DNA of 64,000 nucleotides, from NCBI RefSeq assembly GCF_001921215.1, contig NZ_MSIF01000003.1:62001-126000 (forward strand). The letters are read 5' to 3'. The notes under the pieces were generated by a model. It was not told where the DNA came from. It did no database searches and was given only the letters and a program-made list of their open reading frames with translations. Shown here piece after piece: positions 10,047-26,980 of this stretch. The DNA is from Actinophytocola xinjiangensis. GTDB lineage: Bacteria > Actinomycetota > Actinomycetes > Mycobacteriales > Pseudonocardiaceae. The number at the start of each line of letters is the position of its first letter. Within the stretch, counting starts at the first letter, position 1. A program made the position numbers and the translations under genes.

Positions 10047-12359
10047 CTAGGGGTGGCGGCGTTCCAGCGCCGCCCCCTCCACGTCGACGTTGGGCAGCAC
10101 CCGGTCCAGCCAGCGCGGCAGCCACCACGCCGAGCGCCCCAACAGGTGCATCAGCGCCGGCATCAGCAGCATCCGGATGACGAACGCGTCGATCAGCACG
10201 CCGACGGCCAGCCCGAAACCGACCGACCGGATGATGTTCGAGTCGGAGAACACGAACCCGCCGAAGACCGACACCATGATCAGCGCGGCCGCCGTCACCA
10301 CCGCCCGGCCAGCGCGGAACCCTTGTGCCACGGCGAGTTTCGGTGCCGAGCCGTGGACGTAGGCCTCCCGCATCCCGGTGGCGAGGAACAGCTGGTAGTC
10401 CATCGCCAGGCCGAACAGGATGCCCACCAGGATCACCGGCAGGAAGCTGAGGATCGGCCCGGTCGTGGTCACGCCGAACACCGAACCCAGCCAGCCCCAC
10501 TGGAACACCGCGACCGTCGCGCCGTAGGTCGCGAACAACGACAGCACGAAACCGCCGGTCGCCACCAGCGGCACCAGGATCGACCGGAACACCACGATCA
10601 TGATCAGCAGCGACAGGCCCACCACGACCAGCAGGTACACCGGCAGCACGTCGGCGAGATTCCCGGAGATGTCGATGTTGATCGCCGCCTGGCCGGCGAC
10701 ACCGAGCGCCACACCGGCGTAGGACGTCCCGTCCAGCACACCGTCACCGCGCAGGTCACGGACCAGCTGCTCGGTCGACTCGCTGTTCGGGCCGTCGACC
10801 GGCACCACCCGGAACGCGGCCAGCTCACCGCTGTCGGACACCGCGATCGGCGCGATCGCCTCCACACCACCGACCTCGTCGATCGCCTGGGAGATCTCCA
10901 GCTGGGCGCCGGCCCGACCGGCCTCGTCGAGGCCGGCGGGCAGGTCGGCGGTCACCAGCAGGGTGGCGTTGGTGCCGGCGCCGAACGCGTCGGCGGTGAG
11001 CTCGTAGGCCTGGTTGGTGGTCGAGCCGGCGGGCTCTGACGACCCGTCCGGCAGGCCCAGCCGCATGGACAGCGCCGGGATCGCGATCACCAGCAGCGCC
11101 AGCACGCTGGCCACGATGGTCAGCACGGCACGCGGCGTGCGCATCGGCTTCGCGTCCGAGCCCGAGGACGGGGTGGCCGCCAGCCGGGCACGGGCCCGCT
11201 CGCCAAGGACCCGCTCCCCCACCAGCCCGAGGATCGCCGGGGTCAGGGTCACCGCGACGAACACCGCGACCGCGACACAGACCGCGCCGACGGTTCCCAT
11301 GATGCCCAGGAACGAGACGCCGGTGATGTTCAGCGCCAGCAGCGCGACGATCACCGTCGAGCCGGCGAACAGCACGGCGTTGCCGGCGGTGCCGTTGGCC
11401 AGCGCCACCGACTCCCGCACCGACATCCCGTGGGCGAGCTGCCGGCGATGCCGGTTGACGATGAACAGTGAGTAGTCGATGCCGACCGCCAGGCCCAGCA
11501 TGACGCCGAGCACCGGCGTGATCGACGCCATCTGCACCACGCTGGAGAACCCGAGCGAGGCCAGCACCCCGATCCCCACCCCGACGACCGCCGTGACGAT
11601 CGGCAGCGCGGCGGCGACGACCGTGCCGAGCATGACCAGCAGGACCGTGCCGGCGATCACCAGACCGATGATCTCGGCGACGCCGAACACCTCCGGCACA
11701 CCCTGGGCGATGTCGGTGGAGTAGTCGACCGCGACCCCGTCCACCCGGTTGCCGTCGAAGAAGTCGATGACCCCGTTGCGGGTCTCGTCGGACAGCTCCA
11801 TCCTCGGCGTGCTGAACCCGACGTTGATCACGGCGACCGACCCGTCCGCCGAGACCAGGCGGATCCCGTCGGCCAGGTCGAGCATGCGCGAGGCCGCCTC
11901 CAGCTGCGCGCCCTGCTGCTCCAGTTCGGGGCTGGCCCCGCCGAACCGGGCGACCTGCTGCTCCAGCTGGGCCTTGCCGCCCTCGACCTCGGCGGCCTGC
12001 GCCGCCCGCTGCGCCTCGGCGGCGAACGGGTCGACCACCCCGGCGACGTCGGGCAGCTCCTGGCCGGCGCGCTCGATCAGGCCGGCGTAGGCGGTGCGTT
12101 GCTCGTCGGTGAACGCCGCGCCGTCCTCGGTGTGGATGACGACCATGCCCGAGGCGCCGCTGTACTCCGGTAACTCGCCCTCCAGCCGCTCGATGACCTC
12201 GGAGGACGCCGTGCCCGGGATGTCGAAGTTGTTGGCCAGGGTGCCGAACCCCAGCGCGAACCCACCCCCCGCGACCGCGAAGATCACGGCCCACACGGCG
12301 ATGACCCGCCACCCGTGCCCGGCCGCGTTCCGACCGATTCGATACAAGAACTCCGCCAC
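10047..12359 (-). CDS. MMPL/RND-family membrane transporter
   Basis: 770 residues with the classical MMPL layout: an N-terminal membrane helix, a large extracytoplasmic loop (about 40-190), five to six helices, a second large loop (about 430-550) and a last block of helices. Motifs such as GIDYSLFIVNRHRRQL and GLAMDYQLFLATGMREA carry the conserved Asp-Tyr pairs of the proton-relay helices. Such pumps export lipids, siderophores or drugs using the proton gradient. GTG start with GGGAG upstream. It is transcribed divergently from a TetR regulator, the usual arrangement for a substrate-inducible exporter. Confidence 0.92.
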   Translation of the reverse strand: MAEFLYRIGRNAAGHGWRVIAVWAVIFAVAGGGFALGFGTLANNFDIPGTASSEVIERLEGELPEYSGASGMVVIHTEDGAAFTDEQRTAYAGLIERAGQELPDVAGVVDPFAAEAQRAAQAAEVEGGKAQLEQQVARFGGASPELEQQGAQLEAASRMLDLADGIRLVSADGSVAVINVGFSTPRMELSDETRNGVIDFFDGNRVDGVAVDYSTDIAQGVPEVFGVAEIIGLVIAGTVLLVMLGTVVAAALPIVTAVVGVGIGVLASLGFSSVVQMASITPVLGVMLGLAVGIDYSLFIVNRHRRQLAHGMSVRESVALANGTAGNAVLFAGSTVIVALLALNITGVSFLGIMGTVGAVCVAVAVFVAVTLTPAILGLVGERVLGERARARLAATPSSGSDAKPMRTPRAVLTIVASVLALLVIAIPALSMRLGLPDGSSEPAGSTTNQAYELTADAFGAGTNATLLVTADLPAGLDEAGRAGAQLEISQAIDEVGGVEAIAPIAVSDSGELAAFRVVPVDGPNSESTEQLVRDLRGDGVLDGTSYAGVALGVAGQAAINIDISGNLADVLPVYLLVVVGLSLLIMIVVFRSILVPLVATGGFVLSLFATYGATVAVFQWGWLGSVFGVTTTGPILSFLPVILVGILFGLAMDYQLFLATGMREAYVHGSAPKLAVAQGFRAGRAVVTAAALIMVSVFGGFVFSDSNIIRSVGFGLAVGVLIDAFVIRMLLMPALMHLLGRSAWWLPRWLDRVLPNVDVEGAALERRHP

Positions 12360-12386
12360 ACGCCACTCCCGTCTCGACTACTCGGC

Positions 12387-12424
12387 ACGATACGTTGTGT
12401 CTCGCATTAGCCGACAACTAGGAT
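12387..12424. promoter_or_regulatory. Overlapping divergent promoters and candidate TetR operator
   Basis: Between MMPL and tetR, GTTGT (12394-12398) and ACAAC (12414-12418) form an inverted repeat with a 15-base spacer. For tetR, -35 TTGTGT (12395-12400) and -10 TAGGAT (12419-12424) lie 18 bases apart and the ATG follows 7 bases later, suggesting a leaderless message. For MMPL, TTGTCG (minus strand, 12412-12417) and TATCGT (12387-12392) are candidate elements with a 19-base spacer. One regulator dimer here could block both promoters. Confidence 0.55.
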
Positions 12425-12431
12425 CGCGAAC

Positions 12432-13013
12432 ATGGCAGGACCAGGGCGTCGGGGCCCGAAACGCAGCGAGGAGGCCCGCGTCGCCATCCTGGAAGCCGCC
12501 GCCCGCCGCGTGATGACCGACGGTTACGACCACCTCACGATGGAGGGCGTCGCGACCGAGGCGAAGGTCGGCAAGCAGACGATCTACCGCTGGTGGCCCT
12601 CCCGCAGCGCGCTGGTGGCCGACTGCCTGGCCGAGCGCCTGCTGCTCCCGGAACTGTTCGTCCCGGACGACTCCGGTGACCTGCACGCTGACGTGACCCG
12701 CTGGCTGGACAACATCGTCGGCTTCCTCAACGCCCCCGGCAACGCCGGGCTGCTGCACTCACTGGTCGTCGCCGCCGCCGAGAACCCCGACGTCGCCGCG
12801 ATCCTCAACGACCGCCTCGGCCTCTGGGAAATGCTCGACGAACGCTTCACCCAGGCCGTCACCGCCGGCCAACTCCCCCCCACCACCCCGGTCCCCGAAC
12901 TGGGCGACGCCCTGATCGGCGCCATCGTCCTGCGCGGCCTGCGCAACGGCGACCTCGGCCCCACCTTCACCCAGGGCCTGGTCCAACTCCTGCTCCCTCC
13001 CCGGGAGACGTGA
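12432..13013 (+). CDS. TetR/AcrR-family repressor, probable regulator of the MMPL pump
   Basis: 193 residues. The N-terminal TetR HTH is clear (ILEAAARRVMTDGYDHLTMEGVA, then KQTIYRWWPSR, residues about 17-62). The C-terminal half is a helical ligand-binding and dimerisation domain of the TetR_C type. The ATG lacks a Shine-Dalgarno sequence, fitting a leaderless start. Divergent location from the MMPL gene with an inverted repeat between them predicts local repression relieved by the pump substrate. Confidence 0.9.
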   Translation: MAGPGRRGPKRSEEARVAILEAAARRVMTDGYDHLTMEGVATEAKVGKQTIYRWWPSRSALVADCLAERLLLPELFVPDDSGDLHADVTRWLDNIVGFLNAPGNAGLLHSLVVAAAENPDVAAILNDRLGLWEMLDERFTQAVTAGQLPPTTPVPELGDALIGAIVLRGLRNGDLGPTFTQGLVQLLLPPRET

Positions 13014-15428: not shown

Positions 15429-15435
15429 CACCCGG

Positions 15436-15464
15436 CGGGGACCCCGCGAGCGGCGGGGTCCCCG
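15436..15464 (+). terminator. Intrinsic terminator after the aldehyde dehydrogenase gene
   Basis: A perfect 12-bp GC stem, CGGGGACCCCGC (15436-15447) with its complement (15453-15464) and a 5-base loop, starts 7 bases after the stop codon. It separates this transcript from the oxygenase operon downstream, so the latter needs its own promoter in about 15465-15516. Confidence 0.85.
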
Positions 15465-15516
15465 GTGTGTGGCGTGTCACGAGTGTCACCTGATTACTGT
15501 GTGCCACGATCTAGGG

Positions 15517-16362
15517 GTGGCCCTGGATGAGGTGGTGGACACCGAGCGTTATCCGCTGGCCGATCCGGGTGGATCGGCGTGGCGCGCCACGGTGGAGCGC
15601 ACACGTGCCGAGCTGGCCGACGTCGGCTGCAGCGTGCTCGCGGACTTCGTCCGGCCCTCGTTCCAGGAGCGGCTGCGGGCCGAGTGCGCGCGGATAGCGC
15701 CGCTGGCCCACGGCGAGGTCGAGCGGGTCAACGCCTACAACATCGCCGTGGACACGCCGCTGCCGGCGGACCATCCCGGGCGGGTGGTCATGGAGCGCGG
15801 CAACGCGTTCGTGGCCCGCGACCACATCCCCGCCGGCTCGGCCCTGCAGGTGCTGTACACCAGCCCGGTGTTCCAGCGCTTCGTCGCCGACTGCTTCTCG
15901 CTGCCGGTGCTGCACGAGCTGGCCGACCCACTGTCCGGCCTGTGCCTGAACGTGATCGCCCCAGGTCGGGCGCACCCGTGGCACTTCGACACCAACGAGT
16001 TCACCGTCAGCATGCTGACCCAGGAGGCCGACGAGGGCGGGACCTTCGAGTACTGCCCGAACATCCGCTCCGCCGAGGCGGAGAACTTCGACGACGTCGC
16101 CGCCGTGCTCGACGGCCGAGGCGAGCGCCTCGTGCGGCGCCTGGAGCTGCGGCCGGGCGACCTGCAGCTGTTCCTCGGCCGGTTCGCGCTGCACCGGGTC
16201 AGCACCGTGGGCGGCGAGCGCGCCCGCCACACCGCGATCTTCGCCTACAGCCAGCGGCCCGGTGTCGTCGGCAGCCCCGAGCGGACCCGGCAACTGTTCG
16301 GCAGGGTGCTGCCCGAGCACGAGGCCGCGCACCTGGTCCGCGGCGACCAACTCCTCGACTGA
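15517..16362 (+). CDS. BesD-family Fe(II)/2-oxoglutarate oxygenase, probably an amino acid hydroxylase
   Basis: About 281 residues. The core WHFDTNEFTVSMLTQ, then GGTFEYCPNIRS, LELRPGDLQLFLGRFALHRV and a late Arg closely resembles the HalD/BesD family of free-amino-acid halogenases and hydroxylases. Metal ligands are His156 and His226. The third ligand position is Asp158 (HFD); BesD-type halogenases have Gly or Ala there to admit chloride, so hydroxylation or another oxidation is predicted. The exact start is uncertain: GTG at 15517 is used, 15532 and 15499 are alternatives, and an upstream GTG at 15469 falls after the terminator stem and is unlikely. It is the first gene of a three-gene operon with a methyltransferase and a carnitine-type acyltransferase. 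Confidence 0.82.
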   Translation: MALDEVVDTERYPLADPGGSAWRATVERTRAELADVGCSVLADFVRPSFQERLRAECARIAPLAHGEVERVNAYNIAVDTPLPADHPGRVVMERGNAFVARDHIPAGSALQVLYTSPVFQRFVADCFSLPVLHELADPLSGLCLNVIAPGRAHPWHFDTNEFTVSMLTQEADEGGTFEYCPNIRSAEAENFDDVAAVLDGRGERLVRRLELRPGDLQLFLGRFALHRVSTVGGERARHTAIFAYSQRPGVVGSPERTRQLFGRVLPEHEAAHLVRGDQLLD

Positions 16363-16394
16363 CCAGTGACATGACAACTTCAGGAGGCTCGCAG

Positions 16395-17225
16395 GTGACC
16401 CTCGACGAGACCGGAAAGTTCTCGTTCGACCATGTCTACACCGAGCCAGATCCACGACCGTTCTTCCGCGCGCTGGGCGAGGTCGGCTACCAACTCCCCC
16501 AGCTGGCCAAACCACACCTGACGTCCCTGGTCGACGAGTACCGCGCCGGCCGAGGCGTCGACCAGCCGACCGTCGCCGACCTCGGCTGCTCCTACGGGGT
16601 GAACGCCGCGCTGTTCCGCTGCGCGGCGACCATGGACGACCTGTACGAGCACTACACCGCCGACGAGGCCGCCGGGCTCGACCGCGACGGCCTGCTCGAC
16701 CGCGACCGCGAGTTCCTGCGCACCCGCGACGACCGCGTGCCGCAGGCGCGGTTCGTCGGCCTGGACGTGTCGGCGCCGGCGCTGGCCTACGCCCACGACG
16801 CCGGGTTCCTCGACGAGACCGTGTCGGCCGACCTGGAGAACGAGGAGCCGACGCCCCGCCAGCGCGCCGTGCTCTCCGGCGCGGACCTGGTCGTGTCGAC
16901 CGGGTGCGTCGGCTACGTCACCGAGCGGACGATCACCAGGATCGCGACGCTGCCCGAGCGCCGGCCGTGGATGGCGCACTTCGTGCTGCGGATGTTCTCC
17001 TACGAGCCGATCGCCGACGCCCTCACCGACCTCGGCTACCGGACCACCGAGGCCCCTGGCCTGTTCCGACAGCGCCGGTTCGCCTCGGCCGAGGAGCAGG
17101 AGCGGATCCTCGACACCCTGCGCGACAACGGTGTCGAACCCGACGACCAGGAGACCGGCGGCTGGCTGTGCGCGCGGCTCCACCATTCCCGACCGATCGA
17201 CGAGTACAAGGACGACCTGACGTGA
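16395..17225 (+). CDS. Class I SAM-dependent methyltransferase in the oxygenase/acyltransferase operon
   Basis: 276 residues. SAM-binding motif I is VADLGCSYGVNA (about 57-68), with an acidic motif at VGLDVSAPALAYA. The N-terminal FSFDHVYTEPDPRPFF and PQLAKP segments look specific to a small family I cannot name. An ideal AGGAGG with 8-base spacing supports GTG 16395; an ATG at 16371 would add eight residues. It follows the oxygenase by 32 bases and overlaps the acyltransferase start (GTGA). Context predicts N- or O-methylation of the amino acid or small molecule that the oxygenase hydroxylates; trimethylation to a betaine would create a carnitine-like acceptor, which is inference. Confidence 0.82.
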   Translation: MTLDETGKFSFDHVYTEPDPRPFFRALGEVGYQLPQLAKPHLTSLVDEYRAGRGVDQPTVADLGCSYGVNAALFRCAATMDDLYEHYTADEAAGLDRDGLLDRDREFLRTRDDRVPQARFVGLDVSAPALAYAHDAGFLDETVSADLENEEPTPRQRAVLSGADLVVSTGCVGYVTERTITRIATLPERRPWMAHFVLRMFSYEPIADALTDLGYRTTEAPGLFRQRRFASAEEQERILDTLRDNGVEPDDQETGGWLCARLHHSRPIDEYKDDLT

Positions 17226-18988
17226 ACCTGTCTTCCCGCACGTTCGGCAACGAGGAGCACCTGCCCCGGGTGCCGGTGCCGACGCTGGCCGACTCCTGCC
17301 GGCACTTCCTGGAGTGGTCCGCGCCGCTGCTCACCGCCGAGCAGCGCGCGGAGACCGAGGCGGCGGTCGAGTCGTTCCTCGCGCCGGAGGGCGGGGCCCA
17401 CGAGTGGCAGGCGGCACTGGAGCGCTACGACGCGCGCCCGGACGTGCCGAGCTGGCTGGAGGACTTCTGGGACCACCGCTACCTCGGCCGCCGTGACCCG
17501 ATCGCGATCAACGCCAACTACTTCTTCCTGTTCGGTGAGTCCGACGAGGACCAGGTGACCAGGGCCGCGCGGCTGGTGTCCGCCAGCGTCGACTACAAGC
17601 TGCGCCTCGACGAGGAGACGATCCCGCCGGCCGTCCAGCGTGGACGGCCGCTGTCGATGGCCCAGCAGCGGTTCCTGTTCGCCACCGCGCGGATCCCGGG
17701 TGCCGTGCAGGACACCGCGCGGGCACCCTACAGCGCCGAGCACCCCGGCCCGGCGACCGAACGCCACATCATCGTGTTCTACCGGGACACGCCGTTCCGC
17801 GTCGACGTGGTGGCCCCCGACGGTCGCCCGTACGACCGCGAGGACATCGGCGACGCGCTGCGCACGATCATGAAGACCGGCACGTTCACCGACGACCGGC
17901 GCTCGGCGCCCGGCCACCTCACCACGATGCGCCGCGCGGACTGGGCTGCGGCCAGGGAGTCGCTGCTGGCCGACGAGGCCAACGCGGCGGCGCTGACGGA
18001 GGTCGAGTCGGCGCTGTTCTGCCTGTGCCTGGAGGACCTCGCGCCGGAGGGCACCAAGCAGGCCTGTGACCAGCTGTTGCACGGTGACAGCGGCAACCGG
18101 TGGTTCGACAAGTCGTTCTCGCTGATCGTGTTCGCCGACGGCACGGCGGGGATCAACGTCGAGCACTGCGGGCTCGACGGGACGACGATCCTGAGCTTCC
18201 TGGACACGATCCTCGGCGAGGAGCCCGGTGAACGCGCGACGGCGTCCGGCCAGCCGCTGATCTCCCCCGTCGAGTTCACCCTGGACGAGGACCTGCGCCG
18301 GACGGCCGGCGAGGCGGCCGACGCCTTCGCGGCGTTCGCCGCCGCCACCGCGACCGAGACGGTGTCGTTCCGCGACTTCGGGGCGGACACGGCGAAGTCG
18401 CTGGGGATGTCCCCCGACGCGTTCGCCCAGCTGGCCTACCAGCTGGCGCACCGCAGGGCCAAGGGCCTCACCGGCGCCACCTACGAGTCGATCGCGACCC
18501 GCCAGTTCCGCCACGGCCGCACCGAGGCGATGCGCGTGGTCACCCCCGAGATCTTCACCTTCGTCTCCACGATGGACGACCCGACGTCGGACCAGGACAC
18601 CCGCCGTGACGCCTTCCGCGCGGCGGCCGCGGCCCACGTGGCCCGCGCCAAGGAGTGCCAGGCGGGCGACGCCCCCGAGCAACACCTGTGGGAACTGGAC
18701 CGGATCGCCCGCCGCGACGGCGCGACCGAGTCCCACCCCCTCTACCACTCCCCCGGCTGGCAGGTGATGCGCGACGACTACCTGTCCACCAGCTCGGCGC
18801 CGTCGGCCAACGTCGAGTTCTTCGGCTTCGGGTCGACCAGCCCGCAGTGCATCGGCGTCGCGTACGTCCTGCTGGCCGACAGGCTCAACATCTACCTGAG
18901 CACGCCGACGCACGTCGCCGACCAGATGCACACCTTCGCCGCGGAGCTGGGCCGCGCGCTGCGCGAGCTGGTGGACCTACTGGGCTGA
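17222..18988 (+). CDS. Choline/carnitine O-acyltransferase family protein
   Basis: 588 residues with the full eukaryote-like carnitine acyltransferase signature. The catalytic His is in INVEHCGLDG (H315), matching the EHxxxDG element. YESIATRQFRHGRTEAMRVVTPE matches the TxRFxxGRxExxRxxTPE substrate motif, and DDYLSTSSAPSANVEFFGFG matches the STS carnitine-binding strand. The enzyme should transfer an acyl group between CoA and the hydroxyl of a carnitine-like quaternary ammonium acceptor. Such enzymes are uncommon in bacteria. The GTG start overlaps the methyltransferase stop (GTGA), and the gene end overlaps the convergent GyrI-like gene by 12 bases. Confidence 0.9.
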   Translation: MNLSSRTFGNEEHLPRVPVPTLADSCRHFLEWSAPLLTAEQRAETEAAVESFLAPEGGAHEWQAALERYDARPDVPSWLEDFWDHRYLGRRDPIAINANYFFLFGESDEDQVTRAARLVSASVDYKLRLDEETIPPAVQRGRPLSMAQQRFLFATARIPGAVQDTARAPYSAEHPGPATERHIIVFYRDTPFRVDVVAPDGRPYDREDIGDALRTIMKTGTFTDDRRSAPGHLTTMRRADWAAARESLLADEANAAALTEVESALFCLCLEDLAPEGTKQACDQLLHGDSGNRWFDKSFSLIVFADGTAGINVEHCGLDGTTILSFLDTILGEEPGERATASGQPLISPVEFTLDEDLRRTAGEAADAFAAFAAATATETVSFRDFGADTAKSLGMSPDAFAQLAYQLAHRRAKGLTGATYESIATRQFRHGRTEAMRVVTPEIFTFVSTMDDPTSDQDTRRDAFRAAAAAHVARAKECQAGDAPEQHLWELDRIARRDGATESHPLYHSPGWQVMRDDYLSTSSAPSANVEFFGFGSTSPQCIGVAYVLLADRLNIYLSTPTHVADQMHTFAAELGRALRELVDLLG

Positions 18989-19591
18989 GACCGGTTGCCG
19001 CAACACCGTCCGCAGCCGGGCGGGTTCGGTCCGCCGGGGATCACCGAGGTAGATCTCGTGGTGGTCCCCGGCCTCGCGCAGCCCGTTGGCCGGCAGGAAC
19101 TCGTCGTGCAGGGTGGCCAGAACGGGGCCTTCGTCGTCATAGGACCCGACGTGCAACACCTGGGCACAGCGGCCCTCCCGCAGGCTCAACGACCGCACCT
19201 CGGCGATGGCGGGGTTCCGTTTCTTCGCCATCGCCGAGGTCCGTGCGTCGTCGAGCTGCTCGCCGGTGATCCAGTCCGGCCGGTGGAGCAGCATCGTCCA
19301 GTTCCACGAAGCCTTGTCCCGCGCGGTGAAGACCGTGGGGTCCGCGTGCCACCACAGCCCTTCCAACGGTCCCACGACGAAGTCCCGCCCGGTGTCCCGC
19401 CGGGTGGCGAACTTGAGGGTGTAGGCCACGGAGTACAGGGCCTCCACCGCCGCCGCGTAGTCCGGCGAGGTGTTGGGGTCCCCACGCCCGTCCACGGCGA
19501 GGTAGGTCAGCTCGGGCACGTCGACCAGCACCCAGCTGGTGTTCCGGGGCGCGTACAGCCCCTTGTGCTCACGCTTGACATCAAACTTCAC
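18977..19591 (-). CDS. GyrI-like small-molecule-binding domain protein
   Basis: 204 residues. The segment KFDVKREHKGLYAPRNTSWVLVDVPELTYLAVDGRGDPN and the late EGRCAQVLHVGSYDDEGPVLATLHDEF are typical of the GyrI-like/SOUL-fold family found in stress proteins and at the C-terminus of regulators. The GTG at 19591 is chosen because CAGGAG lies five bases upstream; a longer start at 19618 has no ribosome-binding site. There is no DNA-binding domain, so it is probably a ligand-binding or hydrolase-like protein. It converges with and overlaps the carnitine-type acyltransferase gene. Confidence 0.83.
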   Translation of the reverse strand: MKFDVKREHKGLYAPRNTSWVLVDVPELTYLAVDGRGDPNTSPDYAAAVEALYSVAYTLKFATRRDTGRDFVVGPLEGLWWHADPTVFTARDKASWNWTMLLHRPDWITGEQLDDARTSAMAKKRNPAIAEVRSLSLREGRCAQVLHVGSYDDEGPVLATLHDEFLPANGLREAGDHHEIYLGDPRRTEPARLRTVLRQPVSAQ

Positions 19592-19627
19592 CGGAACTCC
19601 TGGTGGTCGGACGGCCACACCCGCTAC

Positions 19628-20779
19628 TCAGGCAGACCTCTCACGGCGACGGGCCAACTCGTCCCCCCGCCGAGGCTGTCCATAATCCCGGATCCCCTCC
19701 ACCAACCGCCCCACATCCCCACTCGGCCGAACCACGAAGCGCAGGAACTGACTGCTCATCCCCAACTTGTTCCCACACTCACGAATGAACACCTGGTGCC
19801 GACCGATCAGGTGGTCACGTAGCTCGACCCCGTCCAACCCCACCGGCAACTTCACCAACAGGAAGTTCCCCTGCGAGGGGAACACGGTGAACTCGGGCAA
19901 CTGCGACACCAACGCCCCCATGTTGTACCGGTCCCGCGCCAGCAACCGCAGGCTCTCCCGATACTCCGCCCCGTGGTCGCGCAGCATGAACACGACCATC
20001 TCCGCCAACGAGTTCAGGTTCCACTTCGGCAACGTCGCGCGCATCGTCGACGCCAGGCCGGGGTTGGCCACCAGGTACCCGAACCGGATGCCGTGCAGAC
20101 CGAAGTTCTTGCCGAGGCTCTTGAGCACGACGACGTTCGGCCGGATCGCCGCCTCCGTCGCGACCGACGGATCACGTTCGGCGTCGACGAAGTCGATGAA
20201 GGACTCGTCGACGACCACCAGGTCCAGGTCCGCCAGCTCGTCCATGAACCGCAGGACCTCACGCCGGGGAAGGTAGCCGCCGTCGGGGTTGTTGGGGTTG
20301 ACCAGGACCGCCACCCGCGAGCGCCGGGCCCGCACGAACCGCACGTACTCGTCGACGTTGAGCGCGAAGCGGTCCGCCTCGCGCAGCGGGAACATGTCGA
20401 CCCGTTTGCCGGTCTCCATCGGCTGGTCGGTCCAGCGGCCGAACGTGGGGATCGGCACGGCCACGCTCTCCCGGAACCACAGGTGGTCCATCCAGGTGAT
20501 CAACTCCGTGGACCCGTTGGCCATCGCCAGGGTCGCCGGGTTCAGACCGAGCAGGCGGCACAGCTCGGCGGCGATCGTGGCGGAGTCGCTCGGGTAGAAC
20601 CGGAGCACGTGCTCCAGGTTGGCCGCCATCTCGGCGAACATCGCCGGAGTCGGGAAGTACGGGTTGCACGGGATGCAGAAGTCGACCAGCTGCTCCCCCG
20701 TCCTTCTCGTCAGCTCGAACACCGACGGACTGTGGGCGGTCTGCTGGAACAGACCCGTTGCCGCGTGGTGGTTTCCCAA
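19628..20779 (-). CDS. PLP-dependent aminotransferase, class I/II (HisC/CobD-like)
   Basis: 383 residues of fold-type I. LVNPNNPDGGYL is the PLP-ring motif, VVDESFIDF carries the pyridine-binding Asp, and the Schiff-base lysine is in SLGKNFGLHGIRFGY (K224). The late conserved Arg of the C-terminal FLRFVVRPS element is also present. Architecture is closest to histidinol-phosphate aminotransferases and L-threonine-phosphate decarboxylases, but it stands outside a his or cob operon, so a specialised amino acid substrate is likely. A TTG at 20779 preceded by GGAG is the best start. It lies 36 bases upstream of the GyrI-like gene on the same strand. Confidence 0.82.
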   Translation of the reverse strand: MGNHHAATGLFQQTAHSPSVFELTRRTGEQLVDFCIPCNPYFPTPAMFAEMAANLEHVLRFYPSDSATIAAELCRLLGLNPATLAMANGSTELITWMDHLWFRESVAVPIPTFGRWTDQPMETGKRVDMFPLREADRFALNVDEYVRFVRARRSRVAVLVNPNNPDGGYLPRREVLRFMDELADLDLVVVDESFIDFVDAERDPSVATEAAIRPNVVVLKSLGKNFGLHGIRFGYLVANPGLASTMRATLPKWNLNSLAEMVVFMLRDHGAEYRESLRLLARDRYNMGALVSQLPEFTVFPSQGNFLLVKLPVGLDGVELRDHLIGRHQVFIRECGNKLGMSSQFLRFVVRPSGDVGRLVEGIRDYGQPRRGDELARRRERSA

Positions 20780-20838
20780 CTCGACTCCGTTTCGTCGCGC
20801 CCGCGTACAGGCGGATACGTAACGGAACTCGCGCCGGT

Positions 20839-22056
20839 TCACCCTGGGAAGGGCCGCCCGGTGGCGAGCAGGCCCAACGCCAGCTCGAACTTGTCCTTCG
20901 GGCGCGCCACCGTACGCCCGGTCAGCGACTCGATCTGCTTCATCCGGTAGATCACCGTGTTCCGGTGGCAGTACAGGGTCTGCGCGGCGTGCGTCGGTGA
21001 CCCGTCGCTGGCCAGCAGCGCGGCCAGGGTGTCCAGCAGGGTCTGGGCCAGCGGCGCCGGCTGGGCCAGCAGCGCGCCGACGGTCTCGGTCACCAGCACC
21101 GGCACCACCTCCGGGCTGCCGGCCAGCAGCACCTCGGGCAGCCGGTCGGTCAGCGGCACCACCCGCTGGGTGCCTCTTGGCAGCGACTCGGCGGTGCGCG
21201 ACGCCAGCTGGTAGGCGGTGGCGAACCCGGCGAGACCGTCGGCGCACGGCGCGAGCCCCACCCGACCGGCCACGCACGGTTCCAGCGCGCCCACCAGCTG
21301 TTCCATCGTCAGGCCGCCGCGCGGGACCAGGCCGAAGAAGCTGCCGCCGCGCACGTGCCAGTGGGAGGCCAGGCCCACCCGCTCCAGCCGGTCCTCCGGC
21401 GCGCGCAGCGGCTCGTCGAGCGGGTCGGTGAACGGGGCGACCACGCACACCACCTGCTCGTCCGGGCCGATGCCCAGTGCCTCGCGGGCCTCCCTGGCGA
21501 ACTCGGGGTCCGCGCCGCGCCCCTCGACCAGGCCGTCGAGGAAGTTCTGCTGGCGTTGGAGGTTCTGGCGCTGCAACCGGTTCGCCTCGCGGCGGTAGGC
21601 CTCGACCAGCACCGCGTTCTGCACGTCCAGCGCGGCCCACAGCTTCTGCCCGGCCAGCACCAGCAGGTGCTCGTTGATCTGGACCTTCTCGTCCCAGCCC
21701 TGGCGCAGCAGCGCCTCCCACAGCGTGCGGGTGCCCTGGGTGTAGGCGCTGAGCACCCGGTCCATCGGCACGCCCTGGCGCGCCCGCAGCCGGCCGGTCT
21801 CGCGCCACACGTCGGTCGCGCGCTGGTCGGTGTCGCCGAGGCCGGCCATCGCGCGGATGCCGCTGCGTACGTGCTCGCGGCTGCTGGCCCGCAGGTCGGC
21901 CTGCCGGTCGGGGCGCTGCTCGGACCAGTACGGGTCGCGTTCGAGCAGCGTGAGGGTGATGTCGTCGGCGATCGCGTCGGCCTGGCCGAGCAGCGACGCC
22001 CAGGCGCGTTCGATCTTCTCCGCCATCTCCGGCGGCGGGCGGCGGGCCACGTCCAT
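20839..22056 (-). CDS. PucR-family (CdaR-like) transcriptional regulator
   Basis: 405 residues. The C-terminal PucR helix-turn-helix is clear (THAAQTLYCHRNTVIYRMKQIESLTGR, about residues 355-380). A central GGDEF-like sensor region (about 170-300) and an N-terminal helical domain are typical of the family, which activates purine, urea, glycerate or amino acid utilisation genes. ATG 22056 is used; GTG 22077 is an alternative. It is divergent from the Liv-type ABC importer, which it probably controls, and 59 bases upstream of the aminotransferase start. Confidence 0.88.
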   Translation of the reverse strand: MDVARRPPPEMAEKIERAWASLLGQADAIADDITLTLLERDPYWSEQRPDRQADLRASSREHVRSGIRAMAGLGDTDQRATDVWRETGRLRARQGVPMDRVLSAYTQGTRTLWEALLRQGWDEKVQINEHLLVLAGQKLWAALDVQNAVLVEAYRREANRLQRQNLQRQQNFLDGLVEGRGADPEFAREAREALGIGPDEQVVCVVAPFTDPLDEPLRAPEDRLERVGLASHWHVRGGSFFGLVPRGGLTMEQLVGALEPCVAGRVGLAPCADGLAGFATAYQLASRTAESLPRGTQRVVPLTDRLPEVLLAGSPEVVPVLVTETVGALLAQPAPLAQTLLDTLAALLASDGSPTHAAQTLYCHRNTVIYRMKQIESLTGRTVARPKDKFELALGLLATGRPFPG

Positions 22057-22210: not shown

Positions 22211-22977
22211 GTGCCACCAACTGGTTTCGAGATGTCCGGTGTGACGGTCACCTTCGGCGGGCTCGTCGCGCTCTCGGACGTCTCGCTCTCGGTCGCCCCC
22301 CACCAGGTCCTCGGCGTGATCGGGCCCAACGGCGCCGGCAAGACCACCCTGTTCAACGTCGCCTGCGGGTTCGTGGCGCCCGACGCGGGTGAGCTGCGCT
22401 GGCGCGGTGAGGTCCTGGCGGACCTGCGGCCCCACCGGCTCGCCGGGCTGGGCATCGCCCGCAGCCTGCAGGACCTGGGGCTGTTCGACCGGATGACCGT
22501 GCTGGACAACGTGCTGGTCGGGGCCGGGCGGCACGTGCGCACCGGGTTCTGGCCGGCGCTGCTGGCCCTGCCCCGCCACCACCGTGACGAGCGCGCGCTG
22601 ACCGACCGGGCGCTGGCCGTGCTGGACGAACTGCACATCGCCGACGTCGCCGGCCGGTACGCCGCGAGCCTGCCCTATCCGGTGCGCAAGCGGGTGGCGC
22701 TGGCGCGGGCGCTGGTCGGCGAGCCGGACCTGCTGCTGCTCGACGAGCCGGCCGGTGGCCTGGCCGACGACGAGATGGCCGAGATCGGCGAGCTGATCCG
22801 GGGGCTGACCGCGCGCACGTCGGTGATGCTCGTCGAGCACCACATGGACCTGGTGATGAGCGTCTGCGACGACATCGTGGTGCTCGACTTCGGGCGGGTC
22901 ATCGCGCGCGGCGGCCCGGACCACGTGCGCGAGCACCCGGCGGTGCTGGCCGCCTATCTCGGTGAGGACGTGGCGTG

Positions 22978-22978
<1 letters not shown>
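22211..22978 (+). CDS. Liv-type ABC importer ATPase, LivG-like
   Basis: 255 residues. Walker A is GPNGAGKTTLF, Walker B LLLLDEPAGGL, and the C-loop is the degenerate LPYPVRKRVALARAL that LivG-type subunits typically show. GTG 22211 is chosen because AGGGAG lies 7 bases upstream; ATG 22232 is also possible. It is the first gene of a five-gene operon (two ATPases, two permeases, binding protein) for branched-chain amino acid, amide or urea-type substrates. Its stop overlaps the next start. Confidence 0.92.
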
Positions 22979-23682
<704 letters not shown>

Positions 23683-23695
23683 CCAGGGAGAACCC

Positions 23696-24574
23696 GTGCA
23701 GCAGCTGATCACGACCGTCCTCACCGGACTGACACTGGGCATGGTCTATGCCGCGTTCGCGCTCGCCCTGGTGCTGATCTGGCGGGCGACCCGGATCGTC
23801 AACTTCGCCCAGGCACCGATGGCGATGATCACCACCTACCTCGCGCTGGTGCTCATCGACGCCGGCCTGTCCTACTGGGTCGGCTTCGCCGTCGCGCTGG
23901 TGTCGGGCCTGCTGCTCGGCGCGCTGGTGGAGCGGCTGGTGGTCCGGCACCTGACCGGCAGTTCGGAGATCAACGCGGTGATCCTGACGCTCGGCCTGTT
24001 CATCGTGATCCACGCGCTGGCCGCGCTGGTCTTCGGTTCGCGCTACCGGTCGTTCCCGGCGCCGTTCGGGCTGCGCGGGTTCCAGGTCGGCGACACCACG
24101 ATCGCGCTGACCGGGTTCGGGGTGTTCACGATCGTCTCGGTGATGGTGGTGATGGGGCTGCTGGTGCTGCTGTTCCGGGGCACCGACCTCGGGCTGAAGA
24201 TGCGCGCGGCGGCGTTCGACCAGGAGATCTCCCGGCTGCTGGGGGTGCGGGTGGGCCGGATGCTGACGCTGGGCTGGGCGCTGGCCGCGCTGGTCGGGTC
24301 GCTGTCGGGGCTGCTGATCGCCGGCGGCGGGCTGGTCCACCCGTCCTACATGGACGGCGTGGTGGTGTACGGGTTCGTGGCGGCGGTGCTCGGCGGGTTG
24401 GAGAGCCCGCCCGGCGCGGTGGCCGGCGGGCTGATCCTGGGGCTGGCGCTGAGCCTGGTCAGCGGGTACGTCGGCTCGGAGCTGGTGCCGCTGGCCTGTC
24501 TGGTGATCCTGATGGCGGTCCTGCTGGTCCGCCCGGGCGGGCTGTTCTCCCACGTCCGCGCGCGGAGGGTGTGA
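23696..24574 (+). CDS. Branched-chain-type ABC importer permease, LivH-like
   Basis: 292 residues with about eight hydrophobic helices and the LivH hallmarks LTLGMVYAAFALALVLIWRATRIVNFAQ at the start and LAALVGSLSGLLIAG with VVVYGFVAAVLGGLESPPGAVAGG near the end. GTG 23696 has AGGGAG upstream. It packs with the LivM-like subunit to form the inner-membrane channel. Confidence 0.93.
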   Translation: MQQLITTVLTGLTLGMVYAAFALALVLIWRATRIVNFAQAPMAMITTYLALVLIDAGLSYWVGFAVALVSGLLLGALVERLVVRHLTGSSEINAVILTLGLFIVIHALAALVFGSRYRSFPAPFGLRGFQVGDTTIALTGFGVFTIVSVMVVMGLLVLLFRGTDLGLKMRAAAFDQEISRLLGVRVGRMLTLGWALAALVGSLSGLLIAGGGLVHPSYMDGVVVYGFVAAVLGGLESPPGAVAGGLILGLALSLVSGYVGSELVPLACLVILMAVLLVRPGGLFSHVRARRV

Positions 24575-24575
24575 C

Positions 24576-25658
24576 ATGGCGACTCTCGCCGACCGGGTCC
24601 TGGGCCGCACGCCGCTGCGCCGCCACCTCACGCTCGCCCTGCTGGGGCTGGTGGTGGTCGTGGTGGTGCTGGAGAGCACCGGCCAGTTCCGCAACGCGCA
24701 GTTCGCGGCCATGGCCTACTACGGCATCGCCGCCGGCGGGCTGACCATCCTGATCGGACTCAACGGGCAGATCTCGTTGGGGCACGGCGCGTTCATGGCG
24801 ATCGGCGCGTACACGGCGGCGCTGCTGCTGCGCGGCGACGAGCCGTTCGCGCTGCCGCTGGTCCTGCTGGCGGCCGCCGGGGTGGCGCTGGCCGCCGGGG
24901 CGCTGGTCGGGGTCGCGGCGGCCCGGCTGCACGGGCCGTACCTGGCGGGCGCGACGCTGGCCCTGGCGGTCGCGGTCCCCGGCATCCCGGTGTACTTCGG
25001 GGAGGCGCTCGGCGGCGAGCAGGGGCTGACCGTGCGCGTGCCGCGGATCCCCGACTGGTTCGCCGACGCGGTGTTCTTCGTCACCGGGCAGGACATGAGC
25101 AGCAGCCGGTACCTGGCCTACGTGGGCTGGTTGTGCCTGATCGTCACGTTCGTCCTGTTGGCCAACCTGGCCAGGAGCCGGGTCGGGCGCACCTGGCGGG
25201 CGGTCCGCGACCACGAGGTCGCCGCCGAGCTGGCCGGTATCGATCTCGGCCGGGCACGGGTGTTGGCCTTCGTCGTCAGCGCGACCTGCGCGGGCCTGGC
25301 CGGTGGGCTGCTGGCGCTCTCGGCCAGGATCGCCGCGCCCAGCGGGTTCACCCTCACGCTGTCGCTGCTGCTGCTCTCCGCGATCGTCCTCGGTGGGCTG
25401 GGCAGCCTCACCGGGGCGCTGATCGGCGCGGCGCTGCTCACCTTCCTCCCCCAGCTGGTCACCGGCTGGGGCCAGGACCTTGGCCTGAGCGATGTGCGGG
25501 CCGCCGAGCTGGCGCCGCTGATCTACGGCCTGGTCACGGTGCTCGTCGTGCTGTTCGCCCCCGCCGGGATCGCCGGCGGTGTCCTGGCCGCCCGTCGGCG
25601 CCGCGCGGCGCACCACGGTTCCCCGTCAGCAAGAACGGATTCGGAGGCACGACCATGA
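24576..25658 (+). CDS. Branched-chain-type ABC importer permease, LivM-like
   Basis: 360 residues. YGIAAGGLTILIGLNGQISLGHGAFMAIGAY is the LivM signature, with GRTWRAVRDHEVAAELAGID in the cytoplasmic coupling loop and LLLSAIVLGGLGSLTGALIGA near the end. It begins one base after the LivH-like stop and its stop overlaps the binding-protein ATG (ATGA). Confidence 0.93.
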   Translation: MATLADRVLGRTPLRRHLTLALLGLVVVVVVLESTGQFRNAQFAAMAYYGIAAGGLTILIGLNGQISLGHGAFMAIGAYTAALLLRGDEPFALPLVLLAAAGVALAAGALVGVAAARLHGPYLAGATLALAVAVPGIPVYFGEALGGEQGLTVRVPRIPDWFADAVFFVTGQDMSSSRYLAYVGWLCLIVTFVLLANLARSRVGRTWRAVRDHEVAAELAGIDLGRARVLAFVVSATCAGLAGGLLALSARIAAPSGFTLTLSLLLLSAIVLGGLGSLTGALIGAALLTFLPQLVTGWGQDLGLSDVRAAELAPLIYGLVTVLVVLFAPAGIAGGVLAARRRRAAHHGSPSARTDSEARP

Positions 25659-26980
25659 GGCGTTGGACGAAACGCTGGACGAGGGTCACCGCACTGGTCT
25701 GCGCCGGCGCGCTGCTGGCCGCCTGCGGGGCCGGCGAGGAACGCGAGCGGGACCCGGCGGTGGAGGGGTCGACGGTCGGCATCACCGACGACACCATCAC
25801 GATCGGCGGCCACTTCCCGCTGACCGGCGTCGCCGCGCCCGGTTACAGCGAGATCCCGAGCGGTCACCAGGCCTACTACGACTACGTCAACGCCAACGGC
25901 GGCATCAACGGCCGGAAGATCGAGTTCGTGGTCCGCGACGACGCCTACAACCCGACCACGACCAGCCAGGTCACCAACGAGCTGGTGCTCAACGAGGAGA
26001 TCTTCGCGATGGTCGGCGGGCTCGGCACGCCGACCCACGGCGCCGTGGTCGACTTCCTCAACGGCGAGAAGGTGCCCGACCTGTTCGTGTCCTCCGGGTC
26101 GCTGCAGTGGGGCGACCAGCCGGACAAGAGCCCGTTCACCTTCGGCTGGCAGCCCGACTACGAGATCGAGGGCAAGATCATCGGCCAGTGGGTGGCGGAG
26201 AACCTGCCGGACGCGAAGGTCGCCCTGTTCCTCCAGGACGACGACTTCGGTCGCGACGGCGAGAAGGGCGTGCGCCAGTTCATCGACGGCCAGATCGTCG
26301 AGGTGCAGAAGTACCAGTCGGGCAACACCGACGTCGCGCCGCAGATGGCCGCGTTGCAGGCCTCCGGCGCCGACCTGGTCCTCGGGTTCACCACGCCGTC
26401 CTACACCGCGCTCAGCCAGCTGGTGTCGCTGCGGCTGGGGTACCAGCCCAAGTGGTTCTACAGCAACGTGGGCGCCGACCCGGCGCTGGTCGGCTCGCTG
26501 CTGGCCCGGTTCTCCGAGGGCGCGGTGACCGACGGTACCCAGCTGCTCGACGGTGTGGTCACCACCGAGTACATCCCGGGCACCGACGTGCCGGACGACC
26601 CGTGGATGACGCTGTGGCAGAAGGTGTGGGACGAGCACGGCGGCGAGGGCGAGCTGACCAACTACCGGGTGTTCGGCATGTCCCAGGCGTACACGTTCGT
26701 CCAGGCGATGCTGGCCGCCGGGGAGAACCCGACACGTGAGGGTGTGGTGGCCGCGATCGAGAAGTCCGGAGCGGACTTCCAGGGCCCGGCGCTGGCCCCG
26801 TTCCGCTTCTCCGGCGAGAGCCACCTCGGCATCTCGGGCATGCAGGTCGTGGAGATCAAGGGCGGGGTGGGTCAGGAGCTGACCCCGGTCCTGGTCACCG
26901 ACATCGGCGACGCCCCGATCGAGGAGGACGACTCGGCCGCCGGTGACGCGCCGCCACCGAACGGGATCCCCGAGGGCTGA
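25655..26980 (+). CDS. ABC importer substrate-binding lipoprotein (Peripla_BP_6 / LivJ type)
   Basis: 441 residues. The lipobox LLAAC places the lipidated Cys at residue 24. The mature protein starts with the Liv-type ITDDTITIGGHFPLTG and continues as a two-lobed periplasmic-binding fold; NPTTTSQVTNELVLNEEIFAMVG and DDDFGRDGEKGVRQF are typical. An acidic, Pro-rich tail ends the protein. GGAGG precedes the ATG. Binding could be for branched-chain amino acids, urea, amides or aromatic acids; specificity is not readable. The operon is closed by a hairpin at 26989-27019. Confidence 0.92.
   Translation: MRRWTKRWTRVTALVCAGALLAACGAGEERERDPAVEGSTVGITDDTITIGGHFPLTGVAAPGYSEIPSGHQAYYDYVNANGGINGRKIEFVVRDDAYNPTTTSQVTNELVLNEEIFAMVGGLGTPTHGAVVDFLNGEKVPDLFVSSGSLQWGDQPDKSPFTFGWQPDYEIEGKIIGQWVAENLPDAKVALFLQDDDFGRDGEKGVRQFIDGQIVEVQKYQSGNTDVAPQMAALQASGADLVLGFTTPSYTALSQLVSLRLGYQPKWFYSNVGADPALVGSLLARFSEGAVTDGTQLLDGVVTTEYIPGTDVPDDPWMTLWQKVWDEHGGEGELTNYRVFGMSQAYTFVQAMLAAGENPTREGVVAAIEKSGADFQGPALAPFRFSGESHLGISGMQVVEIKGGVGQELTPVLVTDIGDAPIEEDDSAAGDAPPPNGIPEG

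Follow-up and report, generated by a model that had tools for sequence, protein, structure and literature searches.

In L-carnitine biosynthesis, hydroxylation by a 2-oxoglutarate (2OG)-dependent enzyme yields an alcohol which is later O-acylated, and the known carnitine and choline acyltransferases act on quaternary-ammonium alcohols. In the present work, an operon combining an oxygenase gene with an acyltransferase gene was analysed in Actinophytocola xinjiangensis, within a stretch of 64,000 nucleotides (contig NZ_MSIF01000003.1, positions 62,001 to 126,000; this whole stretch is called the window, and its numbering is used for the operon). Three plus-strand genes are involved: gene 1 (15517..16362), whose 281-residue product is assigned by Pfam match, predicted fold and alignment with BesD to the HxD, or hydroxylase, type of Fe(II)/2OG oxygenase in the BesD/HalD superfamily; gene 2 (16395..17225), predicted from its S-adenosylmethionine (SAM) motif, its fold and the Pfam matches of its family to encode a class I SAM-dependent methyltransferase which is accessory to the other two; and gene 3 (17222..18988), coding for a carnitine/choline-type O-acyltransferase of 588 residues (Pfam, alignment) with an altered acceptor pocket. 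The genes are tightly packed, as the initial annotation had described, with a 32-base gap between the end of gene 1 (16362) and the start of gene 2 (16395), and with a GTGA overlap shared by the gene 2 stop codon (17223-17225) and the GTG start codon of gene 3 (17222). Linkage and active-site residues together lend good support to a scheme in which the gene 1 enzyme would hydroxylate a zwitterion and the gene 3 enzyme would then acylate it.

Conservation and linkage of the genes

A scan with the gene 2 protein, covering one genome per species, confirmed 197 relatives, and among the best 80 loci, which were kept, 77 contain all three genes in the same order and on the same strand. These loci are found in Amycolatopsis (19), Nocardia (17), Streptomyces (15), Actinomadura (12), Frankia (7) and Actinophytocola (3), with one each in Kutzneria, Actinokineospora, Actinoplanes and a member of the Micromonosporaceae, while the three others (L003, L004 and L060) carry gene 2 without genes 1 and 3. 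The co-occurrence of the trio in actinobacterial neighbourhoods, a check proposed in the initial annotation, was thus borne out in nine named genera. The annotation had also known of no described pathway of such composition, and indeed no account of this gene set was found in one open-licence paper library, which omits most subscription journals; the gene set is real and conserved, and seemingly undescribed. A search for gene 3 on plasmids gave nothing useful.

The association is closest between genes 1 and 3. Among 297 genomes of the host's family, matches were obtained to the acyltransferase in 104 (105 loci), to gene 1 in 110 and to gene 2 in 86, genes being considered linked when their midpoints lie no more than 4 kb apart, and all counts referring to related genomes rather than to independent events. 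From the table of pairs, 14 weak or fragmentary oxygenase rows (<165 bits) were dropped, these being the sole oxygenase rows for eight genomes and including those of G157 (a 41% relative) and G283 (a fragment beside a methyltransferase), both of which lack an acyltransferase; three weak methyltransferase rows (two from G102, one from G107) were likewise dropped. Oxygenase and acyltransferase then occur together in 102 of the 297 genomes, the acyltransferase without the oxygenase in two, and a full-strength oxygenase without the acyltransferase in none, a co-occurrence far above chance (Fisher p ~1e-78, kinship ignored). At 103 of the 105 acyltransferase loci the oxygenase gene lies upstream in the same small operon, and the genes share one strand throughout. 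As to the view that true carnitine acyltransferases are uncommon in bacteria, it holds across the phylum, where the family was found in 5 of 396 sampled genomes (including the host and one marginal match), but not in the host's family with its 104 of 297. The gene 1 profile was matched by 32 of 296 genomes sampled from the class, 29 of them exceeding 450 bits, linkage not being counted here.

Gene 2 behaves differently. The order oxygenase-methyltransferase-acyltransferase is present at 58 of the 105 loci, oxygenase-acyltransferase at 31 and oxygenase-acyltransferase-methyltransferase at 14, the acyltransferase standing alone at two. In 28 of the 102 genomes with the pair no methyltransferase was detected, and in three more (G030, G256 and G170) it is encoded elsewhere in the genome; conversely, 11 of the 297 genomes have gene 2 but no acyltransferase. 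An obligatory trio was rejected on this basis. In 13 chosen genomes the methyltransferase was found in none, by a search which had no internal positive control. In the methyltransferase tree, which covers 55 of 112 rows, a branch with full support parts the proteins encoded between the pair from those encoded after it, the side of the latter also holding 11 unlinked copies and that of the former three. In the acyltransferase tree (50 of 109 rows), nine loci with the methyltransferase in last position form one clade with nine pair-only loci and two lone copies, the other nine pair-only loci lying elsewhere. Because the two linked forms of the methyltransferase are separate clades, the pair probably acquired methylation on two occasions, and methylation is hence accessory; the alternative to two gains would be repeated loss of the methyltransferase from an old trio. 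Of the order first suggested for this operon, namely hydroxylation, N-methylation and acylation, the first and last steps are well supported by linkage and residues, and methylation as an obligatory middle step is not. In G283 (C1:2257646-2258707), where no acyltransferase matches, the methyltransferase gene beside the oxygenase fragment looks like part of a decayed copy of the operon.

A fourth conserved gene was sought with the 80 loci and the window as queries, using open reading frames (ORFs) of at least 90 amino acids, a threshold of E 1e-20 and coverage of half of the query, with the trio region excluded. Under these settings 69 ORFs have a match in one or more other genera and none in over two, and the candidate was rejected; with looser settings, ORFs had been seen to match in as many as 25 loci, but many of these ORFs are antisense or shadow frames. 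This result bears on two other explanations of the operon. The genes could form a cassette which tailors a larger natural product, be it a peptide, a polyketide or a nucleoside, assembled elsewhere, as many trio hosts are producers of secondary metabolites, fungal polyketide synthases can carry carnitine-acyltransferase domains, and the loss of a coenzyme A (CoA)-binding lysine in gene 3 (K419, see below) would suit a carrier-bound donor; however, no non-trio ORF extends beyond two other genera and BesD-group structures contain free lysine or ornithine, and we consider such a cassette quite unlikely. The other explanation differs in purpose and not in chemistry, as the acceptor would be made in order to store or export short acyl groups in a reversible buffering or detoxification system resembling eukaryotic carnitine. 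PMC11852590 describes carnitine acetyltransferase as reversible, and the pair is self-contained with no conserved megasynthase, but no linked exporter, beta-oxidation gene or CoA gene is conserved across genera, which leaves this purpose unlikely.

Active-site residues of the two core enzymes

Gene 1 scores 44.1 bits against Pfam HalD (PF23169; cut-off 26), and its predicted structure (predicted local distance difference test, pLDDT, 93.5) retrieves with Foldseek 38 best PDB matches which are all chains of the BesD group (HalB, BesD, HalD, HalA and lysine hydroxylase), at 14-19% identity. A TauD/BBOX domain was encountered neither as a Pfam match of gene 1 nor among the 50 structural matches listed. 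The protein was aligned to BesD itself, from the S. cattleya plasmid, in a comparison of 32 sequences for which the roles of BesD residues were taken from PMC13244439. The iron ligands H156, D158 (Gly in BesD) and H226 (16192..16194), together with the 2OG arginine R237, are present in 32 of 32, and the motif HPWHFD (H153-P-W-H156-F-D158; 15973..15990), which contains the first two ligands, in 119 of 119 copies of gene 1. The metal triad is accordingly located where the initial annotation had placed it, and Pfam, fold and triad agree with its assignment of gene 1 as a hydroxylase-type member of the BesD-like fold group.

On the substrate side, BesD H137 aligns with H153 (32 of 32) and BesD R77 with R94 (Arg in 31 of 32, Lys in one), the latter alignment depending on gap placement. 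The acids which in BesD bind the lysine ammonium are not kept: E123 is replaced by L139 (Leu in 30 of 32), D143 by T159 (Thr in 32 of 32), and D239 falls in a gap. At the position of W241 Val is found in 28 of 32, in a C-terminal part which is poorly alignable. With counterparts aligned to two carboxylate-side residues and the ammonium-binding acids replaced, this pattern fits, without proving it, a hydroxylase for a carboxylate-bearing substrate whose side chain has no free ammonium, for which a betaine or a neutral amino acid would be an example. The expectation that gene 1, as a BesD-type enzyme, acts on free amino acids is at 14-19% identity not simply transferable: the equivalents of R77 and H137 speak for it, the changes at E123, D143 and W241 against it.

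The context of eight diverged relatives of gene 1 was also inspected (33-41% identity in the four for which values were obtained). One lies downstream of a dimethylargininase-like gene (L169), one beside an ATP-binding cassette (ABC) transporter with a family 3 solute-binding protein (L170) and one upstream of another 2OG oxygenase (L171). In L174 (4398-9941) the oxygenase gene is followed by two histidine-ammonia-lyase-like genes and preceded by a regulator which from its sequence appears to be of the LysR type; this cluster is possibly a separate amino acid pathway.

Gene 3 matches Carn_acyltransf (PF00755) over its whole length with 530.6 bits (cut-off 22.3), and its best solved relative is human carnitine acetyltransferase (CrAT, 1NM8; E 2.5e-71). 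Its residues are here compared in full-length CrAT numbering, which equals that of 1nm8 plus 21 according to PMC11852590. Across 107 non-redundant acyltransferase copies, obtained after exclusion of 18 of 125 rows as short or duplicate loci, CrAT residues H343, Y452, T465, S554 and F566 are kept, the catalytic base H343 corresponding to H315 of gene 3 (18164..18166; 107 of 107), so that the catalytic machinery of a carnitine acyltransferase, and H315 in particular, is in place as initially annotated. The acceptor pocket is altered in every copy: arginines occupy the positions of CrAT A106 and Y110 (R86 and R90 of the gene 3 segment R86-Y-L-G-R90, 17477..17491), Ala is found at 467, and R518 is replaced by Gln (Q487, 18680..18682), each in 107 of 107. 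The position of CrAT M564 is occupied by F534 in gene 3 (18821..18823), a residue predicted to make for a short acyl pocket, and by Phe in 105 and Trp in two of the 107. The pattern at 106, 467 and 518 is identical in all arrangements, that is, with the methyltransferase in the middle (78 copies), absent (18) or last (9) and in lone copies (2), implying that the acceptor class is common to loci with and without the methyltransferase.

We take R518 of CrAT to bind the carnitine carboxylate, positions 106 and 467 to matter for the choice between choline and carnitine, and M564 to limit acyl length. Choline acetyltransferase presumably has Met, Val, Asn and Asn at 106, 465, 467 and 518, where gene 3 has Arg, Thr, Ala and Gln instead. 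PMC13255071 places CrAT Tyr86 and Tyr89 (1nm8 numbering; 107 and 110 here) in contact with a tunnel-entrance inhibitor reaching toward the catalytic His322, and PMC11852590 gives C2-C4 acyl-CoA as preferred by CrAT. The replacements in gene 3 would point to an acceptor which is neither carnitine nor choline, with its carboxylate read by R86/R90, and to a short acyl group.

For comparison, 13 loci from another actinobacterial family were considered, of which ten (L134, L182-L190) could be aligned and lie outside the signature group, two (L191 and L192) were too short, and one (L181) carries the full signature. All ten non-signature enzymes keep R518, have Gly, Ala or Ser at 106 and lack an arginine at 110. 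No oxygenase gene was found in their ~1.5 kb flanks, and of six such genomes searched whole only G960 encodes an oxygenase, which is diverged and unlinked. In these ten enzymes no lysine aligns with either CoA-phosphate lysine, the alignment being uncertain there, and several of their genes adjoin one which from its sequence resembles a peptide-type ABC transporter ATPase gene. The contrast at the acceptor pocket bears on an ordinary carnitine system, in which gene 1 would be a gamma-butyrobetaine hydroxylase, gene 3 a carnitine acetyltransferase and gene 2 a methyltransferase of lysine or gamma-aminobutyric acid. Among solved structures human CrAT is indeed closest to gene 3, and a betaine-type importer adjoins one lone copy (L194, below), but R518 is replaced by Gln, A106 by Arg and Y110 by Arg in 107 of 107 copies whereas R518 is kept in 10 of 10 non-signature enzymes, and gene 1 belongs to the BesD type, neither Pfam nor the 50 listed structural matches offering a TauD/BBOX relative. 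The pocket residues led us to reject a plain carnitine pathway; a carnitine system of this kind is very unlikely, and on the same residues plain carnitine is an unlikely acceptor. The product which the initial annotation called acylcarnitine-like stays plausible in kind, but would be formed in a pocket unlike that of carnitine enzymes.

Three genomes (G040, G074 and G984) contain a signature acyltransferase and no detected oxygenase. In the first two, which belong to one genus, an amino acid permease gene is located directly upstream (L147 and L148). In the third (L194, 2618-8234) the acyltransferase gene is convergent with an ABC importer having an OpuAC-type binding protein (Pfam, over cut-off) whose relatives of solved structure bind glycine betaine, choline, carnitine and ergothioneine; the NCBIfam matches of this importer to OsmF and ProV are below their cut-offs. 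Such genomes may import the acceptor instead of making it, and this points to an amino-acid or betaine-like compound. Under another explanation the pair would acylate a free, non-quaternary hydroxy amino acid and gene 2 would then methylate its carboxylate, amine or another group, giving an O-acyl amino acid or its methyl ester. To judge by structure titles, the known substrates of BesD-group enzymes are free lysine or ornithine, R94 and H153 are kept in gene 1, the permease gene adjoins L147 and L148, and the methyltransferase is optional, all of which would suit a free amino acid. Against this, carnitine and choline acyltransferases use quaternary-ammonium alcohols, gene 3 retains Y452, T465, S554 and F566, and the importer beside L194 is of the betaine type; a free amino acid is in our estimation a somewhat unlikely acceptor.

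Gene 2 and the surroundings of the operon

Gene 2 reaches no Pfam or NCBIfam cut-off, but contains the SAM motif DLGCSYG noted in the initial annotation, and of 42 members of its family 17 match Methyltransf_25 and 15 match Methyltransf_12 at E <=0.01. A structural search with its model (pLDDT 92) gave 281 matches at E <=0.001; the 50 listed are for the most part methyltransferases and have query-normalised TM-scores (template modelling scores) of 0.30-0.44 and 10-16% identity. Motif and model together identify gene 2 as a predicted class I SAM methyltransferase, and because its fold matches form a broad class I mixture they are too general for the methylated atom to be assigned. It shares fold and SAM motif with BioC, TmtA, MmtN, GNMT and other class I enzymes, none of which is a close relative; PDB sequence searches with gene 2 returned no useful relative, and an NCBIfam search with all three genes nothing useful. 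The host also has a histidine-methyltransferase-type gene (PF10017) and a BCCT-type transporter gene, and may thus obtain quaternary amines in other ways.

The start of gene 2 is most likely the GTG at 16395, since it is preceded by AGGAGG (16382..16387, plus strand), a likely ribosome-binding site; the ATG at 16371, from which the gene 2 protein used in this analysis was read, is a less likely alternative. A GC-rich hairpin (15433..15467; -33.1 kcal/mol, z -4.3, without a T-run) between the preceding aldehyde dehydrogenase gene and the operon is possibly the end of the aldehyde dehydrogenase transcript. Searches for a sigma-70 promoter, a T-run terminator or a known RNA family in or near the operon found none. 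Searches of the host genome with PF00755 and with HalD returned one gene each, both within this operon.

The aldehyde dehydrogenase gene was rejected as a member of the conserved unit, being matched at only four other loci in three genera. On the minus strand at 18977-20842, convergent with the operon, lie two genes, one for a class I/II aminotransferase and one for a GyrI-like small-molecule binding protein, the latter sharing 12 bases with gene 3 where that gene ends. A branched-chain amino acid type ABC transporter (ATPase, two permeases and binding protein) is encoded some 4 kb beyond the operon, at 22975-26977, and is not kept beside the trio at other loci. Further upstream (10050-13010) an MMPL-family transporter gene is divergent from a TetR-type regulator gene.

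The candidate pathway and its closest described relatives

The reading that we tentatively favour, with something approaching even confidence, is that a zwitterionic amino acid or betaine is hydroxylated and then O-acylated with a short acyl group, methylation being optional. With Fe(II), 2OG and O2, the gene 1 enzyme would place a hydroxyl group on an aliphatic carbon in a small zwitterion, for which an amino-acid betaine whose side chain bears no free ammonium is a likelier candidate than an amino acid. H315 of gene 3 would then activate the new hydroxyl, to which a short acyl group (acetyl- or propionyl-sized) would be moved from acyl-CoA, and the acceptor carboxylate would be read by R86 and/or R90 instead of an arginine at 518, being placed elsewhere than in carnitine. 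In most hosts, but not all, gene 2 would supply or decorate the compound by methylation. The expected product is an O-acyl-hydroxy betaine analogous to acetylcarnitine or acetylcholine. In its broader form, held more tentatively still, this reading would add to the carnitine/choline acyltransferase superfamily a third acceptor class, found across Actinomycetota, in which the arginine has moved from 518 to 106/110 and a hydroxylated amino-acid betaine is received from a near-obligate BesD-type partner.

Several observations weigh against this reading. We observe linkage, motifs, folds and residue replacements, but infer the order of reactions, the acyl length, the re-siting of the carboxylate and the quaternary nitrogen, and we assume the roles given above for CrAT positions 518, 106, 467 and 564. 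Gene 1 offers no equivalent of BesD W241 and D239, and carries Ile at the position of N222; its eight diverged relatives, only four of which had an informative context, have neither H153 nor, as they were aligned, R94. In gene 3, the CoA 3'-phosphate lysine K419 is not conserved, K423 being kept, with the consequence that the donor could be another thioester; A467 also occurs in one, and Tyr564 in three, of the ten non-signature enzymes. Finally, the transporter neighbours of lone acyltransferase genes are known from three genomes in two lineages only.

If hydroxylation and acylation of an amino-acid betaine is correct, the operon would specify an undescribed family of bacterial acetylcarnitine- or acetylcholine-like esters. 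The pathway would be compact, self-contained and widespread in genera noted for their antibiotics, and would join an amino-acid-type C-H hydroxylase to an enzyme family chiefly familiar from mitochondria and synapses. It would further provide a third mode of acceptor recognition in the carnitine/choline acyltransferase family and a new hydroxylase for biocatalysis, and it predicts a small quaternary or amino-acid ester which could be searched for in existing metabolomes. The protein signature HPWHFD (gene 1) with RYLGRR and APEQHLW (gene 3) makes the pathway directly testable.

Compared with described systems, gene 1 has in common with the BesD/HalB/HalD halogenases and lysine hydroxylase 7JSD the fold, the H-x-W-H-x-D/G motif, the second iron His and the 2OG Arg, with the Asp iron ligand as in 7JSD; R94 and H153 align with the carboxylate-side residues R77 and H137 of BesD, but gene 1 differs in its 14-19% identity, the replacement of E123 and D143, and short insertions before the motif region. 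Gene 3 is homologous over its whole length to CrAT (1NM8) and choline acetyltransferase (PF00755), sharing the catalytic His, the STS motif and Y452/T465/F566, and departs from CrAT by R518 to Gln, A106 to Arg, Y110 to Arg, T467 to Ala, M564 to Phe or Trp and the non-conservation of K419; its pocket fits neither the carnitine nor the choline pocket as these are known. The non-signature actinobacterial enzymes (L134, L182-L190) belong to the same Pfam family and phylum as gene 3 but keep R518. With L-carnitine biosynthesis, as carried out by the trimethyllysine and gamma-butyrobetaine hydroxylases, the gene pair has in common the principle of 2OG-dependent hydroxylation to an alcohol followed by O-acylation, and is distinguished from it by another kind of 2OG oxygenase, another acceptor pocket and no further conserved linked enzyme.

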